Assembly (NCBI RefSeq): GCF_014287585.1
Contig: NZ_JACOOJ010000029.1
Span: 1 to 64,000, forward strand
Direction of reading: 5' to 3'
DNA: 64,000 nt
From: Parabacteroides hominis
GTDB lineage: Bacteria > Bacteroidota > Bacteroidia > Bacteroidales > Tannerellaceae
In this document: positions 13,765-45,581 of the stretch, piece by piece
Numbering within the stretch: position 1 is the first letter of the stretch
Layout: each line of letters begins with the position of its first letter
Made by a program: the position numbers and the translations under genes
Notes under the pieces: generated by a model
Told to the model about the DNA's origin: nothing
The model's input: only the letters and a program-made list of their open reading frames with translations
The model's database searches: none

Positions 13765-14892
13765 ATGAGAGTTTTTATTCAATCGATAGTTGCACAGATA
13801 TTACTGAATCCTTATATCTTCTGGCGAGGGTATCAGGCAATTCCCCCAAAAAAGAGCTGGAGGATTCCCTATGTCTTGTTTTTTATCCTTGAATTATCAC
13901 TCTTCTTCTTCGGCTTTACATTCCGCAATGTGCTGCCGGACCCCGTTATGATTGCCATCCAGTATATTTGCAATACCTGGTATATCGCTTCTATTTATAT
14001 CACGCTCTCCCTGTTGGCTCTGGAAGCGCTCCGGCTCAGCAACCGTTGTTTCCATTGGTTTCCCGGTTGGATAACAAGGCATTGGAGGCAAACGAAACTT
14101 ACTTTATTCTTTTTGATCATAGCAATCGTCACCGGCTTGATGTTCCATGCTTATCATGTTGTCACCCGTCCGGTTGTCAAAGATGTATATGTCACCCTAC
14201 CCAAAGGGAGCAGCGACCGTGACAGCATGACGATTGTCATGATGAGCGATCTCCATATCGGGGAAGTGATCGGCAAGGAACTGGTACAGCGATACGTGAA
14301 GATGAGCAACGAACAACATCCCGACATGGTTGTCCTGGTAGGCGATATCATGGATTATGAATCCCGCTTTGCCGAAAAAGCCCATATCGAAGAGGATTTG
14401 AAGCAACTGAAAGCCCCGTTAGGCGTATATGTGGTTTACGGCAACCACGAGTATCGTGCCAACCGCATAGCCAAATACCGCTGGCTGAAGAAAACAGGGG
14501 CAACCCTTCTGATCGATTCCGTTGCAAGCCCGGACTCTTCATTCTACCTGATCGGACGGGACGACCATATCAACAAGAAAAGAAAGCCGTTACATGCACT
14601 TATGGCAGGCATAGACACGACCAAGCCGATCATCGTATTGGATCATCAGCCCTGGTCGTTCGCCGAAATGACAATGAACGGTGTGGACCTCGGACTCCAC
14701 GGGCATACCCATAACGGACAGCTATGGCCCTACCCTCTTTTAATGAAACTGATCTATGAATGTCCGTACGGCTACCATAAGAAAGGGCCGACACAGTTCT
14801 ATATATCTTCCGGTATCGGGATAGCCGGGCCACCTTACCGGGTCGGTACTGTCTCGGAAATGGTCGTGCTACATATCAAGTTTGTCAACTAA
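13765..14892 (+). CDS. Membrane-anchored calcineurin-like metallophosphoesterase (second of two)
   Basis: A 375-residue paralogue of the preceding gene with the same layout: N-terminal membrane helices (PYVLFFILELSLFFFGF, then further helices to about residue 130) and a catalytic domain with MMSDLHIGE, LVGDIMD, YGNHEYR, LDHQPWS and HGHTHNGQLWP. The pair most likely arose by tandem duplication and is co-transcribed. The last 8 bases overlap the end of the convergent purU gene. Confidence 0.85.
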   Translation: MRVFIQSIVAQILLNPYIFWRGYQAIPPKKSWRIPYVLFFILELSLFFFGFTFRNVLPDPVMIAIQYICNTWYIASIYITLSLLALEALRLSNRCFHWFPGWITRHWRQTKLTLFFLIIAIVTGLMFHAYHVVTRPVVKDVYVTLPKGSSDRDSMTIVMMSDLHIGEVIGKELVQRYVKMSNEQHPDMVVLVGDIMDYESRFAEKAHIEEDLKQLKAPLGVYVVYGNHEYRANRIAKYRWLKKTGATLLIDSVASPDSSFYLIGRDDHINKKRKPLHALMAGIDTTKPIIVLDHQPWSFAEMTMNGVDLGLHGHTHNGQLWPYPLLMKLIYECPYGYHKKGPTQFYISSGIGIAGPPYRVGTVSEMVVLHIKFVN

Positions 14893-15739
14893 ATATCACG
14901 GTTTTATTCTTATAGGCCAGAATCTTCCGTTCAATATGTTTCTGAACGGCACGGGAGAGGACTATCTTTTCCAGATCTTTCCCTTTATTGACAAGATCGG
15001 TAATCGTATCTTTATGGGTGATGCGGACAACATCCTGTTCGATAATCGGTCCGGCATCCAGTTCGGTCGTTACATAATGGCTGGTGGCGCCAATGATCTT
15101 AACACCCCGTTCAAAAGCGGCATGATAAGGTTTCGCACCAACAAATGCCGGCAGGAAAGAATGATGGATATTGATAATACGATTCGGATAGGCTTCGATC
15201 ATCTTTTCGGAAATAACCTGCATATAACGTGCCAGGACAATAAAGTTCACCTTATGTTCGGCAAGTAATTCCAACTCTTTTGCCTCCTGCTCCGCTTTCG
15301 TCTCTTTCGTAACCGGGAAAAGACAGAAAGGAATACTGAAACGATCCGCCACATGTTTCAGATCCGGATGATTGCTAATAATCAAAGGTATTTCAACATT
15401 CCACTCTCCTGCCGTATAACGCGCCAGCATGTCAAACAGGCAATGCGACATCTTAGACACAAAAATAGCCATACGAGGCTTGTCATCCGAGAAATACAAC
15501 CGGAAACTCATGCTGTATTTTTGTGCATACAGCGTATCGATATATTCATAAATCTTCTCTTTCGGAATGAAGAAGTCTTTCAATTCCCACTCGATCCGCA
15601 TAAAGAAAATATTCTCGACATGATCTACATATTGATCGAGATATATAATATTCCCTTTATTTACGGTTATGAAGTTCGTCACATCAGCTAAAATCCCCGG
15701 AGTATCGGGACAATGCAATAACAGTTTTGCTGTTGTCAT
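14885..15739 (-). CDS. purU: Formyltetrahydrofolate deformylase
   Basis: Hydrolyses 10-formyl-THF to formate and THF, balancing the one-carbon pool. An N-terminal ACT-type domain (LLHCPDTPGILADVTNFI) is followed by the formyltransferase-like catalytic domain with NIHHSFLPAFVGAKPYH and the SHYVTTELDAGPIIEQD segment. I start at ATG 15739 (MTTAKLLLHCPD), which fits the family; an ORF extending to 15835 has 32 extra residues with no family resemblance. The 284-residue length is normal. Convergent with the phosphoesterase gene, sharing 8 bases; no separate terminator fits between them. Confidence 0.93.
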   Translation of the reverse strand: MTTAKLLLHCPDTPGILADVTNFITVNKGNIIYLDQYVDHVENIFFMRIEWELKDFFIPKEKIYEYIDTLYAQKYSMSFRLYFSDDKPRMAIFVSKMSHCLFDMLARYTAGEWNVEIPLIISNHPDLKHVADRFSIPFCLFPVTKETKAEQEAKELELLAEHKVNFIVLARYMQVISEKMIEAYPNRIINIHHSFLPAFVGAKPYHAAFERGVKIIGATSHYVTTELDAGPIIEQDVVRITHKDTITDLVNKGKDLEKIVLSRAVQKHIERKILAYKNKTVIFS

Positions 15740-15846
15740 AGTTGCTATTTTATCATTAGTCAATAAATCGAGCGACAAAAATAGCATATTATTATTAAAA
15801 ACAAATATAATACGACAAAAAGTTTCCCCTGCCACATAATAAGAAA

Positions 15847-16090
15847 GGCTCTCTTTTGCCGTCTGCTTCAGCAGGCGGATAGATGATTGTTCCGGCTTTG
15901 CCGGTTCCTCTGTGGGTTTTAATCCCTTTAAATATAATAATATGAAAAGGGCCTAAAGTCCACAGAGGAAGAGGCTTTGCCTCTAAATCTTTTAAACCGC
16001 CTGCTTCAGCAGACGGCAAAAGAGAGCCTGCGACATAAGGCGCAGCCTTGTCTGTTAGCTCACAGATAAATCACCATTTATGATTCACAT
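15847..16090 (-). repeat. Composite repeat copy A, module M1 (inverted relative to copies B and C)
   Basis: Non-coding. Arms of about 32 bp at 15847-15878 (GGCTCTCTTTTGCCG...) and 15997-16028 form an inverted repeat; each arm itself contains the palindrome CTGCTTCAGCAG. Inner pairs include CCTCTGTGG / CCACAGAGG. It matches the reverse complement of M1 at 44017-44310 and 44896-45187. The left end is truncated relative to those copies. Confidence 0.85.
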
Positions 16091-16102
16091 CTGCTAAAAG
16101 AT

Positions 16103-16249
16103 GAGTCTGATAGACGCAAATATAATTTTGACGCGGATTTCGCGAATAACGCGGATAAGAAATATGTATCAGGTGTTTAATTCGCCTTATCCGCGAAATC
16201 CGCGTCAAAAAATCCTGTTTATTTATTTTAATCTGCGTCTATCAGACTC
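16103..16249. repeat. Composite repeat copy A, module M2 (147-bp nested palindrome)
   Basis: Outer arms GAGTCTGATAGACGCA (16103-16118) and its complement at 16234-16249; inner arms GACGCGGATTTCGCG (16130-16144) and CGCGAAATCCGCGTC (16192-16206). Only two positions differ from the copy at 44323-44469. Confidence 0.9.
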
Positions 16250-16629
16250 AAACCTCGTATGTGAAGTTGTCCCTATAGATGCCTGCCTTTTTCCTGCTAC
16301 CCTATAGGCTTTTCCCGGACAGGCTAAAGGCTGTATTTTTTAACCTATAACCTGTATTTTATGGGACAGGAACCAATCAGATCCCTTATATGACAAAACT
16401 AAAAAACAGGGTTCACGGTGGTAAAAGGCTAATGGCCAGCGATTTGTTGTGAAGGCTGTGAAGGCTGTGAAACCGGTTTACGATCAGACAATCCTATCGA
16501 TCGATCCCGCCTTTTTTTATCTTGCATTCACAGGGTTCACAGCAACATGCTGATCTACAGAGTTTCCCGGACAGTGTGAACCCTGATTAAATAAAACAAC
16601 CAGGGGGTATTTAGAGGATAATCTAAGAA
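16250..16629 (+). repeat. Composite repeat copy A, module M3
   Basis: About 380 bases with no credible gene, matching 44470-44892 in the same orientation. Contains words around CCTATAGGCTTTTCCCGG and an internal inverted pair CAGGGTTCAC / GTGAACCCTG. Confidence 0.85.
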
Positions 16630-16678
16630 AAACTGAACCTGTAAATGGGGATTTGTCTGTGAGTCCTGAAGAGGCGGG

Positions 16679-16840
16679 ATGGATACAGCCGCTTTTCGCA
16701 AGGGTATCGAGGTCTATGCCGCACAGATTACCGAACTTGCCACCAAAGGTAAAATCCCGCTTATCAAAGGATTTCCGCACCGTGTCGTCAAGGCTTGCCT
16801 GAATGGAAGAGAGGAGGCCGATTTGCTCTTTATCAGATAA
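16679..16840 (+). CDS. Small unrecognised ORF next to the repeat (possible gene fragment)
   Basis: ATG to TAA encodes 53 residues (starting MDTAAFRKGIEVYAAQITEL), preceded by a weak GA-rich stretch. The composition is that of a real soluble protein, unlike translations of the neighbouring repeat, but I do not recognise the family. It may be the remnant of a longer gene cut by the repeat. Its 3' end falls inside the hairpin at 16811-16856. Confidence 0.3.
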   Translation: MDTAAFRKGIEVYAAQITELATKGKIPLIKGFPHRVVKACLNGREEADLLFIR

Positions 16841-16856
16841 GCAAGTTCGCCTCCTC
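16811..16856 (-). terminator. Hairpin downstream of the S41 protease gene
   Basis: Arms GAGGAGGC (16811-16818) and GCCTCCTC (16849-16856) with a second inner pairing ATTTGCT / AGCAAGT. It follows the protease stop on the minus strand but lacks a T run there. Confidence 0.45.
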
Positions 16857-16867
16857 TATTATCAGAC

Positions 16868-18568
16868 TTAGGCCTTTTCGGCAGTTTGCTGCGTTTCTGT
16901 TTTCTCAGGAGTGCCGAGTGTTTTATTATAGAGTTCGGAATCGTTCAAAATTTCCAGTGCCTTATCCAAAACTTCATCTTCCTTCAGGCTGTTTATCAAC
17001 TCGCCTTTCTGGAAATAATAGCGTTTCATGATCTCGGAAGTCAGCAGTTTCTTGATCTGGTCTTTGTTACGATCGAAATCCCGTTCCAAGTCCGGAGTCA
17101 GTTTGGCTTCCAAAGAGTTGAAGATGGTAGAGTCATTATCCATGTACCCCTCAAACTTAGCCACCTCCTTCAGGTTCTTCAATAGTTTTTCACTCTGCCG
17201 GTCGTAGGTGAAGTTCTTTTCTTTGGCATATTGCTTGAAAGCTTCAAAGTCTTCGTCCGTCACCTCGAAGTCCTCAGGCGAAGCGATTTTCTTATGCTTC
17301 TGGGACCAGTGTGCGACAAAATCAGTCAGGACAAAATCAGTCACCAAATAGAACATCATAGTCGGCATTTCCGGCTCTTCTATTTTAAAATCAGGGGTAA
17401 TACCGCCTCCATCCCGGACGGGACGCCCTTTGTCTGTATAGAAGACAGAGGTCAGGCTATCCGGAATAGCCCCGACGCTTCCATCGGCTTTCCGGTGCGA
17501 ATAGTCCATCTGCTGGATGCAACGTCCGCTGGGGATGTAATATTTACTCATCGTCACTTTCACGCTTCCGTTATAAGGAAGTTCACGGGGGGATTGCACA
17601 AGCCCTTTTCCGAAAGAACGCTGTCCGACCAACACGGCACGGTCCATATCCTGTAAAGCCCCCGAAACGATCTCGGCAGCAGAAGCAGAGCCTCCGTTAA
17701 TGAGGACAGCCATCGGGATTACCGTATCGAGCGGTTCGTTGGGCGTACGGTAGGTGCGGTCCCACTGGCTGATCTTCCCTTTTGTCGAAACCACCTCTTT
17801 TCCCTTCGGGACGAACATGCCGACAATCTGCGTGGCGCTTTCCAGCAAACCGCCGCCATTGTTACGCAAATCCAGGATCAACGATTTAATATGATGGTTC
17901 TTTTTCAGATCCTCCAACGCATTTTTAACTTCCTGTGCGCTCTTATCCGTAAACCCTTTCAAATAGATATAGCCTACCCCATCACCACGCACGCCATAGT
18001 AGGTAACCTGGTTTTCCAGAATCTGCTTGCGCACCAGTTCCACTTCACGCGGCTTTTTGTCATACGGGCTTTGTATCTTCAATACCATTTTCGTATTGGG
18101 AACGCCTTTCAGCAAGGCACTCACCTCATCCGAAGATTTGTCGGTCACATCCACCGTGTCGATCGCCAGAATGCGGTCGCCCGCTTTCAAACCGGCCAAA
18201 GCTGCCGGCATCCCTTCAAACGGCTCGATAATATAGACACCGCCCTCTTTCCGTTCGCGTATATAAGAACCGATACCGCCATATTCGCCGGTAGTCATGA
18301 ATTTCAGCTTATCCATTTCCTGCTCCGGGTAGTATTCGGTATAAGGGTCCAAGCCACCTAACATGGCATCGATCCCCCGGCGCACCGTTTTCTCGACGTC
18401 GACCGAATCCACGTAAAACATTTCCACCTCTTTTACCAGAGCGTTAAAGATATCCAGGTTTTTACTGACCTCGAAACGGTTGTCTTTCTGTGCCTGTCCG
18501 GGGATCACGCCTCCCAACAGGAGCAGCAAACTAAAAAGAGCTATTATTTTCTCTCGTTGTTTATACAT
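16868..18568 (-). CDS. ctpA: S41-family C-terminal processing peptidase
   Basis: An exported or membrane-anchored serine protease of 566 residues with a leading hydrophobic segment (IIALFSLLLLLGGVIPGQA). It has an N-terminal helical region, a PDZ domain (about 95-175, GGIGSYIRERKEGGVYII) and the S41 catalytic domain. The Ser-Lys dyad is Ser296 in NGGSASAAEI and Lys321 in RSFGKGLVQ, spaced 25 residues as in this family. Such proteases trim periplasmic or lipoprotein substrates. The gene lies 47 bases from the kinase gene upstream of it and may be co-transcribed with it. Confidence 0.93.
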   Translation of the reverse strand: MYKQREKIIALFSLLLLLGGVIPGQAQKDNRFEVSKNLDIFNALVKEVEMFYVDSVDVEKTVRRGIDAMLGGLDPYTEYYPEQEMDKLKFMTTGEYGGIGSYIRERKEGGVYIIEPFEGMPAALAGLKAGDRILAIDTVDVTDKSSDEVSALLKGVPNTKMVLKIQSPYDKKPREVELVRKQILENQVTYYGVRGDGVGYIYLKGFTDKSAQEVKNALEDLKKNHHIKSLILDLRNNGGGLLESATQIVGMFVPKGKEVVSTKGKISQWDRTYRTPNEPLDTVIPMAVLINGGSASAAEIVSGALQDMDRAVLVGQRSFGKGLVQSPRELPYNGSVKVTMSKYYIPSGRCIQQMDYSHRKADGSVGAIPDSLTSVFYTDKGRPVRDGGGITPDFKIEEPEMPTMMFYLVTDFVLTDFVAHWSQKHKKIASPEDFEVTDEDFEAFKQYAKEKNFTYDRQSEKLLKNLKEVAKFEGYMDNDSTIFNSLEAKLTPDLERDFDRNKDQIKKLLTSEIMKRYYFQKGELINSLKEDEVLDKALEILNDSELYNKTLGTPEKTETQQTAEKA

Positions 18569-19701: not shown

Positions 19702-19775
19702 TCTTCCTTAGCTCAGTTGGTTAGAGCATCTGACTGTTAATCAGAGGGTCCTTGGTTCAAGTCCAAGAGGAAGAG
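19702..19775 (+). tRNA. tRNA-Asn (GTT), copy 1
   Basis: Acceptor TCTTCCT pairs fully with AGGAAGA; D arm GCTC/GAGC; anticodon stem TCTGA/TCAGA with loop CTGTTAA (anticodon GTT); T arm CTTGG/CCAAG. Discriminator G. A CCA follows in the DNA only in this copy. Confidence 0.97.
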
Positions 19776-19811
19776 CCAAAAAGACATCGGGAAAGACCGA
19801 AAAAGACATAT

Positions 19812-19885
19812 TCTTCCTTAGCTCAGTTGGTTAGAGCATCTGACTGTTAATCAGAGGGTCCTTGGTTCAAGTCCAAGAGGAAGAG
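19812..19885 (+). tRNA. tRNA-Asn (GTT), copy 2
   Basis: Identical to copy 1 over 74 bases, spaced exactly 110 bases from it. Followed by CGA rather than CCA. Confidence 0.97.
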
Positions 19886-19921
19886 CGAAAGAGACATCGG
19901 GAAAGACTGAAAAAGACATAT

Positions 19922-19995
19922 TCTTCCTTAGCTCAGTTGGTTAGAGCATCTGACTGTTAATCAGAGGGTCCTTGGTTCAAGTCCAAGAGGAAGAG
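19922..19995 (+). tRNA. tRNA-Asn (GTT), copy 3
   Basis: Identical to copies 1 and 2, again at 110-base spacing. Followed by a terminator. Confidence 0.97.
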
Positions 19996-20004
19996 CGAAA
20001 AGAG

Positions 20005-43083: not shown

Positions 43084-43956
43084 ATGAATATAGATCAACA
43101 GACATACGATGCTCTCCTGCGATTTCAGCGTAATGAAATCACGGAGAGCATTGTTTATACAAAGCTGGCGGCAATCGAGAAAGATCCGGATAACAAGAAT
43201 GTGCTGCTCCGTATTTCTGCCGATGAAAAAGGACATTACGGTATCCTGAAGAAATATACCGGACGGGATGTAGCACCTTACAAATGGAGAGTACTTAAAT
43301 ATTATCTTCTGGCCCGTATATTAGGCATTACTTTCGCCATCAAGCTAATGGAAGGCAGTGAAGAAGGTGCAAAAAACGGCTATGCTGCTTATAAAGACTA
43401 TCCGGACTTGCTTCAGATTGCCAAAGACGAAGACGAGCATGAAGATAAACTCATTGCCCTGATCAACGAGGAAAGGCTCGAATATATGGGTTCCGTCGTG
43501 TTAGGTTTGAATGACGCTTTGGTTGAGTTCACGGGAGCCTTAGCCGGCTTCACACTTGCATTGAGCGACTCGAAATTAATAGCTTTAACGGGGAGCATCA
43601 CAGGTATTGCCGCCGCGCTCTCGATGGCTTCGTCTGAATATCTCTCCACAAAATCGGAAGGCGGAGAAGGGAAACATCCGGTAAAAGCATCTGTCTACAC
43701 GGGTATAGCTTATATTTTTACTGTCGTTGCATTGGTAGCACCCTTTATCTTTATCAGCAATGTATTGGCAGCATTAGGTCTCATGTTGCTTTCCGCCTTA
43801 TTGATCATTGCCTTATTCAATTACTACTATTCAGTAGCCAGAAGCGAAAGTTTCCGCAAACGATTCACGGAAATGGCCGTTTTGAGTTTCAGCGTTGCCG
43901 CTCTAAGTTTCCTGATCGGTTATGCGCTGAAAGAGTTTACAGGGATAGATGTATAG
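43084..43956 (+). CDS. Rubrerythrin-VIT1 fusion iron/manganese transporter
   Basis: A 290-residue fusion. Residues 1-130 form a ferritin-like four-helix domain whose metal ligands are visible in FQRNEITES, SADEKGHYG and AKDEDEHEDK. Residues 135-290 are a VIT1/CCC1-type membrane domain (VVLGLNDALVEFTGALAGF, then ALSMASSEYLSTKSEG) with about five helices. Such Er-VIT proteins export iron or manganese and protect against metal and peroxide stress. Only 10 bases separate it from argS, so it is likely transcribed with it. Confidence 0.88.
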   Translation: MNIDQQTYDALLRFQRNEITESIVYTKLAAIEKDPDNKNVLLRISADEKGHYGILKKYTGRDVAPYKWRVLKYYLLARILGITFAIKLMEGSEEGAKNGYAAYKDYPDLLQIAKDEDEHEDKLIALINEERLEYMGSVVLGLNDALVEFTGALAGFTLALSDSKLIALTGSITGIAAALSMASSEYLSTKSEGGEGKHPVKASVYTGIAYIFTVVALVAPFIFISNVLAALGLMLLSALLIIALFNYYYSVARSESFRKRFTEMAVLSFSVAALSFLIGYALKEFTGIDV

Positions 43957-44016
43957 ACCATGATCCAGTGTAGCCAGAAGCATAGGATAATGACCAATAT
44001 GCCAATAATAAGAAGA

Positions 44017-44310
44017 TTTGAACCACAAATAATGATTTATCAGTGAGCTAACAGACAAAGCTGCGCCTTATGCCGCAGGCTCTCTTTTGCCGTCTGCTTC
44101 AGCAGACGGCAAAAGAGAGCCTGGAGGCTAAGCCTCTTCCCTTGTGGGCTTTAGCCCCTTTATGGATTATATTTAAAGGGGTTAAAAACCACATAGGAAC
44201 CAGCAAAGCCGGAACAATCATCTATCCGTCTGCTGAAGCAGACGGCAAAAGAGAGCCTACGGCACGCCATCCATATTATACACCGGTAAATCATCATTTC
44301 TGGTTCAAAT
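44017..44310 (+). repeat. Composite repeat copy B, module M1
   Basis: Ends are inverted repeats (TTTGAACCACAAATAATG at 44017 and CATTTCTGGTTCAAA near 44296-44309). Inside, 44078-44121 is a perfect 21-bp hairpin (GGCTCTCTTTTGCCG...), and CCGTCTGCTGAAGCAGACGG recurs at 44226-44245. Non-coding. Opposite orientation to the copy at 15847-16090. Confidence 0.85.
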
Positions 44311-44322
44311 CTGCCAAGATAT

Positions 44323-44469
44323 GAGTCTGATAGACGCAAATATAATTTTGACGCGGATTTCGCGAATAACGCGGATAAGAAATATGTATCAGGTGTTTAA
44401 TCCGCGTTATCCGCGAAATCCGCGTCAAAAAATCCTGTTTATTTATTTTAATCTGCGTCTATCAGACTC
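44323..44469. repeat. Composite repeat copy B, module M2 (147-bp nested palindrome)
   Basis: Same length and order as 16103-16249 with 145 of 147 positions identical by eye. The two differences (C and G at the inner right arm) improve pairing with the left arm in this copy. Confidence 0.9.
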
Positions 44470-44892
44470 AAACCTCGTATGTGAAGTTGTTCCTATAGAT
44501 GCCTGTCGCTTCCTGAAAAGACAGGCATCGGTTGCCGGATAGATGCCTACCTTTTTACTGCTACCCTATAGGCTTTTCCCGGATAGGCTAAAGGCTGTAT
44601 TTTTTAGCCTATAACCTGTATTTTATGGGACAGGAACCAATCAGATCCCTTATATGACAAAACTAAAAAACAGGGTTCACGGCGGTAAAAGACTAATGGA
44701 CAGCAATTTGTTGTGAAGGCTGTGAAACCTGTGAAACCTGTTTACGATCAGACAATCCTATCGATCGATCCCGTCTTTTTTTATCTTGCATTCACAGGGT
44801 TCACAGCAACGTGCTGATCTACAGAGTCTCCCGAACAGTGTGAACCCTAATTAAATAAAATAACCAGAGGGTATTTAGAGGATAATCTAAGA
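44470..44892 (+). repeat. Composite repeat copy B, module M3
   Basis: Matches 16250-16629 in the same orientation, with about 43 extra bases near 44507-44550 that look like a local duplication of the GATGCCTG area. Non-coding. Confidence 0.85.
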
Positions 44893-44895
44893 ATA

Positions 44896-45187
44896 TTTGA
44901 ACCACAAATAATGATTTATCAGTGAGCTAACAGACAAAGCTGCGCCTTATGCCGCAGACTCTCTTTTGCCGTCTGCTTTAGCAGACGGTTTAAAAGGCCT
45001 GGAGGCTAAGCCTCTTCCCTTGTGGGCTTTAGCCCCTTTATGGATTATATTTAAAGGGGTTAAAACCCACATAGGAACCGGCAAAGCCGGAACAATCATC
45101 TGTCCGTCTGCTGAAGCAGACGGCAAAAGAGAGCCTACGGCACGCCTCCATATTATACACCGGTAAATCATTATTTATGTTTCAAAT
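44896..45187 (+). repeat. Module M1, copy C
   Basis: A further M1 directly after M3-B, same orientation as M1-B, giving the order M1-M2-M3-M1. Arms CCGTCTGCT(TT)AGCAGACGG and CCGTCTGCTGAAGCAGACGG, ends TTTGAACCACAAATAATG and CATTATTTATGTTTCAAA. Confidence 0.85.
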
Positions 45188-45581
45188 CTGCCAAAAGGCG
45201 ACTACTATGATAGATTTGAAAAACAACTATCATACTATCATGTTTCTTGTGTGAAGATTGAATATCATAAATCAGCTGTTTAACCATCATTTTAGCCGTT
45301 TTACCCGAAATAGAAGCACTCAGAAAGTGTTAAAAACAGACTGTTTTCCGGAAAGCATAAGGCTTTTTTGCCGGAACACGTTACTTTTTTAACAAAAAGA
45401 CGTTAGATCTTCTCCCTGAAATACCCGTATCAGAGCCTTTTACACCTCCATCTGACGGATATCGACACCCGGGTCTGCAGGTGGCCGACATCCGGGTCTC
45501 AATAAAAATATGTAGTTATTCTTATGAAAATAAGCTATATAGAACGCGTAAAAAAGATACTGTCTTTATGTAAGTCTTTTG
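45188..45581. other. Intergenic region downstream of topA
   Basis: No gene seen. Contains a possible hairpin TTCCGG...CCGGAA (about 45339-45375) and a direct repeat CGACA(C/T)CCGGGTCT at 45463-45476 and 45486-45499. No standard T-run terminator for topA was recognised. Confidence 0.4.

Follow-up and report, generated by a model that had tools for sequence, protein, structure and literature searches.

Do the two palindrome-rich blocks in this stretch of Parabacteroides hominis DNA represent one element, and to which class do they belong? Both blocks lie in the 64-kb window (the whole stretch of DNA that was analyzed), at about 15846-16626 (copy 1) and 44014-44890 (copy 2), and contain three unlike modules, named M1, M2, and M3. 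A first, sequence-only reading had described them as a single composite family, either a non-autonomous mobile element or a structured RNA, of no known class. The reading that we favor, with a probability of roughly 0.7, is that gene-less derivatives of mobile elements, nested together, make up the blocks, with M1 of IS200/IS605 type, M2 of GxxExxY type, and M2-M3 duplicated as one piece.

Structure of the two repeat blocks

The features of the blocks and of their surroundings are as follows.

15846-16094, minus strand: copy 1 M1; M1a positions 1-245 match 16092-15846 on the minus strand at 86.3%
Within 15846-16094, minus strand: M0 outer repeat at the M2-side end of copy 1 M1, from the alignment
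16101-16255, plus strand: copy 1 M2, 9-bp CGCGGAT-type units in inverted arrays, 98.7% identical to copy 2
16256-16626, plus strand: copy 1 M3, non-coding module, 94.9% identical to copy 2 over 352 bp
16630-16662, plus strand: likely M0 outer-end remnant directly after copy 1 M3, score 26 against locus L300
44014-44045, plus strand: left M0 outer repeat of copy 2 M1a, from an inverted-repeat search
44046-44280, plus strand: copy 2 M1a core, a quasi-palindrome, by homology best read as a transposase-less IS200/IS605-type derivative
44281-44312, minus strand: right M0 outer repeat of copy 2 M1a, from an inverted-repeat search
44317-44475, plus strand: copy 2 M2, arrays of probable GxxExxY-type units without a gene, from BLAST and arm comparison
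44476-44890, plus strand: copy 2 M3, from BLAST to copy 1
44893-45195, plus strand: copy 2 M1b, repeating M1a in direct orientation and bounded by M0, from BLAST and core alignment
45196-45570, plus strand: M4, dispersed repeat with its right terminal repeat apparently missing in the window; also found at the same place in genome G017
45212-45220, plus strand: second AGATTTGAA (the first is at 44014-44022), bordering the block that is absent from G017

BLAST comparison bears out the presence of three unlike, inverted-repeat-rich modules at two places, with 98.7% identity over 155 bp for M2 and 94.9% for M3. Across M2-M3, 506 of 526 aligned bases are identical, a likeness far beyond chance, and the copy 1 stretch is a net 44 bp shorter. 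The claim that both copies share one module order holds for the order itself, but copy 1 carries M1 the other way round and without one end. The identity of this M1 to the M1 copies of copy 2 is 86-88% by BLAST and 82-84% in the aligned core; the cores of M1a and M1b, which lie in direct orientation within copy 2, are 95.5% identical. Since M1 is both inverted and more diverged than M2-M3, the modules do not share one common history. The extent of the blocks also had to be revised, as copy 2 continues past M3. Its order is M1a - M2 - M3 - M1b - M4, spanning 44014-45570. In copy 1, an inverted M1 that lacks one end is followed by M2, M3, and what is likely an M0 outer-end remnant, the whole spanning 15846-16662. 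The remnant scores 26 against an M0 end of G017 (L300), which 0 of 1000 shuffles reach, and 18 against the M0 of copy 2, which 1 of 1000 shuffles reaches.

Open reading frames of at least 80 aa that touch the blocks are found at 44070-44324 on the plus strand (84 aa) and 16517-16780 on the minus strand (87 aa); the 44-bp length difference between copies argues against coding in M3. A short open frame at 16673-16843 on the plus strand, between M3 and the S41 peptidase gene, has no relative in the fetched loci. Neither a Y1 transposase nor a GxxExxY protein is encoded within the 64-kb window.

M1 as a likely derivative of an IS200/IS605-type element

The M1 core, a quasi-palindrome, measures about 210-235 bp and has inverted arms of 33-39 bp; it is nested inside the outer M0 repeats, which are about 32 bp long and inverted to each other. 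The family is dispersed, with at least 40 distinct places in genome G039 (40 of 67 candidates scored). Mean pairwise identity among the 30 of these copies that were aligned is 88%; compared with them, the window copies show 78-82% identity. Of the 30 aligned G039 copies 28 could be anchored, and TTCA occurs at a fixed place to the left of 16 of these 28 (background 7.3%). The window copies carry M0 at the edge where the G039 copies have the TTCA junction.

The single PF01797 match in G039 (77.2 bits, cut-off 23) is a Y1 transposase gene of 141 aa (L216 1423-1848, minus strand), in whose protein HVH and YIRKQ motifs are visible. This gene is bracketed by M1 arms at L216 1304-1403 (80%) and 1930-2021 (78%); the same locus also contains a solo M1 at 386-633. 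The arms around the gene (L223) form an inverted pair with a score of 108, compared with at most 36 in 100 shuffles. A transposase sharing its end sequences, which the sequence-only reading had suggested looking for, was thus found for M1. With 60.2 bits, the G039 protein exceeds the cut-off of 55 for the IS200/IS605 model NF033573, and with 27.6 bits it stays below the cut-off of 80 for the REP-associated model NF047646; this failure rules against M1 as a REPIN of RAYT/TnpAREP. Because the same arms enclose an HUH/Y1 transposase of IS200/IS605 type in G039, M1 is best read, from its sequence relationships, as a transposase-less derivative of such an element, arranged like a REPIN. We class M1 as a new family within a kind already known, and the earlier statement that no known class could be named does not hold for it; as far as we could find, it does hold for the element behind M2.

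Flanking inverted repeats were tested at six Y1 loci and rose above shuffles at three of them (G039, G004 with a different hairpin, and G035), with none above shuffles at the other three (G018 and two of G016). Three further loci lay outside this test, including G011 L224, where the Y1 gene, a 52% relative, has by eye inverted CCGTCGGTTTTAACCGACGG hairpins on both sides. A second IS200-type gene, the one tested in G004 (L217/L225), is flanked by this other hairpin family (AGCCCTGTAAGGGCGGCAGATC...), whose inverted pair scores 105 compared with at most 32 in shuffles. The G016 Y1 matches at C4:328455, C2:313931, and C2:206386 each contain one internal stop codon. No PF01797 match was found in G017, G014, or G023, though all six searched genomes matched the combined M1 and M2 query.

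Among known systems, M1 is close to IS200/IS605 elements and the PATEs of Haloquadratum walsbyi, which are described with near-terminal palindromes like those of M1 (PMC3119063); the Y1 protein of the M1 relative has a comparable length of about 140 aa. As in the account of PATEs, gene-less copies far outnumber the gene-bearing one, and small elements are inserted in or beside one another. Unlike PATEs, which that source says lack terminal inverted repeats, M1 has arms that are long mutual inverted repeats, and its family occurs in Bacteroidota rather than in Haloquadratum walsbyi. The arrangement also resembles that of REPIN/RAYT systems, as these are outlined in PMC6006769 and PMC3733652: inverted hairpin pairs are scattered over a genome whose single matching Y1 gene has the same hairpins at its sides. 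M1 differs from REPINs in its unit of about 210-235 bp, and its linked protein differs from RAYT/TnpAREP in the model that it passes; REPIN hairpins of RAYT/TnpAREP are described with a GT[AG]G foot at their base (PMC6006769). At the metal-binding place, for which PMC6006769 gives N in E. coli TnpAREP and Q in IS608, the G039 protein reads YIRKQ.

M2 as a probable gene-less miniature of a GxxExxY element

Built from 9-bp units in two inverted arrays, M2 forms a palindrome of about 155 bp. Each half contains one ACGCAAAT-like unit, an AT-rich spacer, and three CGCGGAT-type units, and the halves, separated by a loop of about 23 bp, are near mirror images. The M2 copies of G023 have an identical layout and a similar loop, and shortened or rearranged forms are present in G014, G016, G011, and G029.

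In G029, one M2 match (C2:149981-150017) lies 35 bp from the only PF13366 match of that genome (C2:150052-150381), a GxxExxY gene. M2 matches the left arm of this gene at 35 of 37 bases, with a score of 64 where 1000 dinucleotide shuffles reach no more than 35, and its score of 41 with the right arm is barely above the shuffle maximum of 38; M2 and the arms share the 1+3 unit layout. Five further places in G029, namely three clean 3+3 palindromes, one degenerate, and one single-sided, have no gene inside. These G029 arms and gene-less look-alikes, together with the inverted repeats found at 25 of 30 GxxExxY loci (see below), point to M2 probably being a gene-less miniature of a GxxExxY element. 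M2 resembles the arrays beside the G029 gene of this family (TIGR04256, PF13366) but has no gene itself: comparison of 30 GxxExxY proteins with the window revealed none between the M2 arrays, and M2 is therefore termed a derivative and not a member. Against this reading, PF13366 gave no match in G016 or G023, both of which carry M2, and the sole GxxExxY gene of G014 has CGCAGAT arms, not CGCGGAT. Searches for M2-M3 in plasmids and for the exact M2 pattern in viral contigs gave no match. For M1 and M2, the proposal of a non-autonomous mobile element and not a degenerate gene is supported, as each resembles the ends of a gene-bearing unit in relatives.

GxxExxY genes between inverted repeat arrays

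The GxxExxY family is named after a motif. Its models (TIGR04256 and PF13366; PD-(D/E)XK nuclease) give no function, and a literature search covering few subscription papers and no bioRxiv preprints found no description of GxxExxY as a mobile-element gene, with passing mentions only in two papers, as a neighbor gene in one and in a gene table in the other. Of 123 genomes of the taxonomic family, 34 have a PF13366 match, which exceeds the cut-off in 33, and the proteins retain the G..E..Y and D...E.K pattern.

We tested the flanks of 30 GxxExxY loci for inverted repeats (of 38 PF13366 match rows, eight came without a locus), and at 25 loci the best repeat exceeded all 200 shuffles; the remaining five loci have no such arms. 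In the same test, control genes gave 0 of 77, comprising 0 of 38 purU loci (hand-picked from 80 for flank length) and 0 of 39 S41, topA, and leuD loci (borders taken from locus lengths, which may be off at contig ends). An earlier motif-based ORF-finder pass, which handled 23 of the 30 loci and found 20 above all 100 shuffles, was superseded by this test on search coordinates for all 30. Among plasmid records from several phyla, inverted repeats were found at 3 of 8 loci (Bacteroides finegoldii, Bernardetia, and Sphingomonas), and the five loci without arms indicate that the rule is not universal or that arms decay. By eye, most arms consist of tandem 9-10-bp units that vary by locus; the units seen are CGCAGAT, CACAGAG, CACAGAT, CGCGGAT, CACGAATT, CGCAAATT, and GTGATT.

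GxxExxY genes are scattered between genes of operons. In a chosen, not random, sample of 12 genomes, such a gene is present 3' of leuD in five and absent in seven; at this site the gene is found in G039 and is missing from G015, whose next gene is very similar. The borders at leuD, compared for target duplications, have diverged. We lean, by a little better than even odds, towards GxxExxY genes being at the heart of a class of tiny mobile elements, about 450-500 bp long and so far undescribed, in which one PD-(D/E)XK nuclease gene would lie between inverted arrays of 9-10-bp units, the unit sequence varying between lineages and the layout staying constant.

M0, M4, and the genomic sites of the blocks

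The outer repeats M0 are dispersed terminal inverted repeats without a gene, as expected of a MITE. They surround the M1 core in the window and in G017, and stand alone without it at one place each in G014 and G017. M0-like ends also surround CGCAGA unit arrays at three places in G004 (L292-L294); in sequence, this is nesting of the window's kind with another filling. The G004 arrays enclose a short AT-rich remainder that by eye resembles both ends of the gene region, and thereby resembles what an internal deletion of a GxxExxY gene region would leave. M4, likewise dispersed and without a gene, has terminal matches on opposite strands, again as expected of a MITE. It matches six places in G017, with inverted end matches; one is equivalent to its place in the window (95% over 308 bp), and at another (L300) M1 again adjoins M4.

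Copy 2 is situated between convergent genes, in the order VIT, ATATGCCAATAATAAGAAGATTTGAA, M1-M2-M3-M1 block, AGATTTGAAAAACAAC, M4, topA. In G017, a decayed VIT gene is followed by M4 and topA; ATATGCCAACAATAAAAAAATTTGAAAAACAAC stands at the left border of M4, and the M1-M2-M3-M1 block is absent. A comparison of boundaries with a strain lacking a copy, as had been suggested earlier, could therefore be made at this locus. As M4 is common to G017 and the window and the block is not, about 1.2 kb appears to have been gained in the window lineage; loss in G017 is rated less likely, given the clean edge. The 9-bp AGATTTGAA on both sides of the block (44014-44022 and 45212-45220) may represent a target duplication or else a portion of M0. 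In G004, only 100-150 bp separate VIT and topA, with none of the repeats. The VIT-family gene is intact in the window (43084-43956), with only fragments in G017 (L148 1223-1409). Between topA and argS, G014 (L147) has about 2.3 kb, far more than other relatives, and from its sequence this stretch looks to hold a transposase gene. The compared genomes G014, G016, and G017 belong to the same genus as G001, the source of the P. bouchesdurhonensis locus L022, and are 94-96% identical to the window in the S41 peptidase and 96-97% in topoisomerase I. The names sufC, sufD, leuD, purU, topA, and VIT rest partly on Pfam and partly on reading of the translations.

At the copy 1 site, purU (formyltransferase and ACT domains) adjoins the S41 peptidase gene in the window (14885-18568). 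In G016, G017, and G014, purU is missing from this position: next to S41 come the genes found on the far side of purU in the window, immediately in G016 and after about 1.2 kb of other sequence in G017 and G014. None of these three genomes offers a clean unoccupied site by which the insertion of copy 1 could be dated; the block may mark a rearrangement.

Alternative explanations

The strongest competitor, which we nonetheless consider improbable, is a single composite non-autonomous transposon bordered by M1 and M0, with M2-M3 as cargo. M0 or M1 sequence does lie on both sides of M2-M3 in both copies, and the entire block that separates VIT from M4 is missing in G017 and has AGATTTGAA at either border, but this 9-bp sequence may simply belong to M0. 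M1 is inverted and 12-18% diverged between the copies, compared with less than 4% at aligned bases for M2-M3, and M1, M2, and M4 occur separately from one another in other genomes. The search of relatives for each module, proposed together with the idea of one composite family, found M1, M2, and M4, but yielded only pieces of M3, which is 415 bp long in copy 2: pieces of at most 58 bp in two of six genomes, and of at most 56 bp in three of 123 genomes, a search of limited sensitivity that scored up to five candidates per genome. A further M3 copy was found neither in the genomes searched nor in phages. These results speak against one composite family.

Less probable still is a role of the modules as REP/BIME-like sequences that are retained because they serve transcription termination, mRNA stability, or nucleoid binding. 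On this view, any mobility lies far in the past, and the connection with transposase and nuclease genes is coincidental. Such a role would suit intergenic, palindromic blocks, one of them between convergent genes, and REPs are reported from such places in PMC3733652. It fits poorly with blocks that differ among close relatives at the same place, with the recent duplication of M2-M3, and with arms that enclose genes in relatives. The modules may, even so, have acquired a function after insertion.

A structured non-coding RNA, in M3 or the whole block, is very improbable: M3 folds better than dinucleotide shuffles (z of -3.15 on the plus and -3.93 on the minus strand), but the signal is as strong on the opposite strand, as expected of palindromic DNA, the two near-identical copies allow no covariation test, and Rfam gathering thresholds are reached in the whole window only by three distant tRNAs, with no family at the blocks. 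At loose thresholds, Rfam gave 34 matches, nearly all to microRNA hairpin models and all below their own thresholds. The three tRNAs are tandem tRNA-Asn genes at 19702-19996. This part of the earlier proposal therefore received no positive support.

Model and implications

Under the favored reading, nests of gene-less derivatives would have gathered in intergenic gaps of the Parabacteroides chromosome. Y1 transposases are described as acting on single-stranded hairpins (PMC6006769), and we infer that an HUH/Y1 transposase made elsewhere would recognize the hairpin arms of M1 and move it via single-stranded DNA. The parent of M2 would be a one-gene element whose GxxExxY gene has inverted arrays of 9-10-bp units on both sides, and the nuclease that this gene encodes may bind the arrays and act on the M2 miniature in trans. 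M3 would have traveled with M2, the two being duplicated as one piece, and at the topA-side locus the M1-M2-M3-M1 block would have been placed at the edge of the older, MITE-like M4. According to PMC3119063, gene-less IS605-type derivatives in Haloquadratum likewise multiply and serve as targets for other small elements. The BrickBuilt MITEs of Porphyromonas gingivalis, whose cited title speaks of a minisatellite within a MITE (PMC5771137), are also intergenic, gene-less repeats of Bacteroidales, a likeness drawn from their description only.

For Parabacteroides, M1 would add a case in which gene-less copies form a REPIN-like population alongside an IS200/IS605-type transposase, and the nesting would illustrate how such repeats pile up into what appears to be a single composite element. 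If the proposed class of GxxExxY elements is real, miniatures like M2 would account for the CGCGGAT, CGCAGA, CACAGA, and CACGAATT intergenic repeats in Bacteroidota, giving this class of short repeats a parent. As the gene of a miniature element, GxxExxY would gain a testable role, and its patchy presence at leuD a reason.
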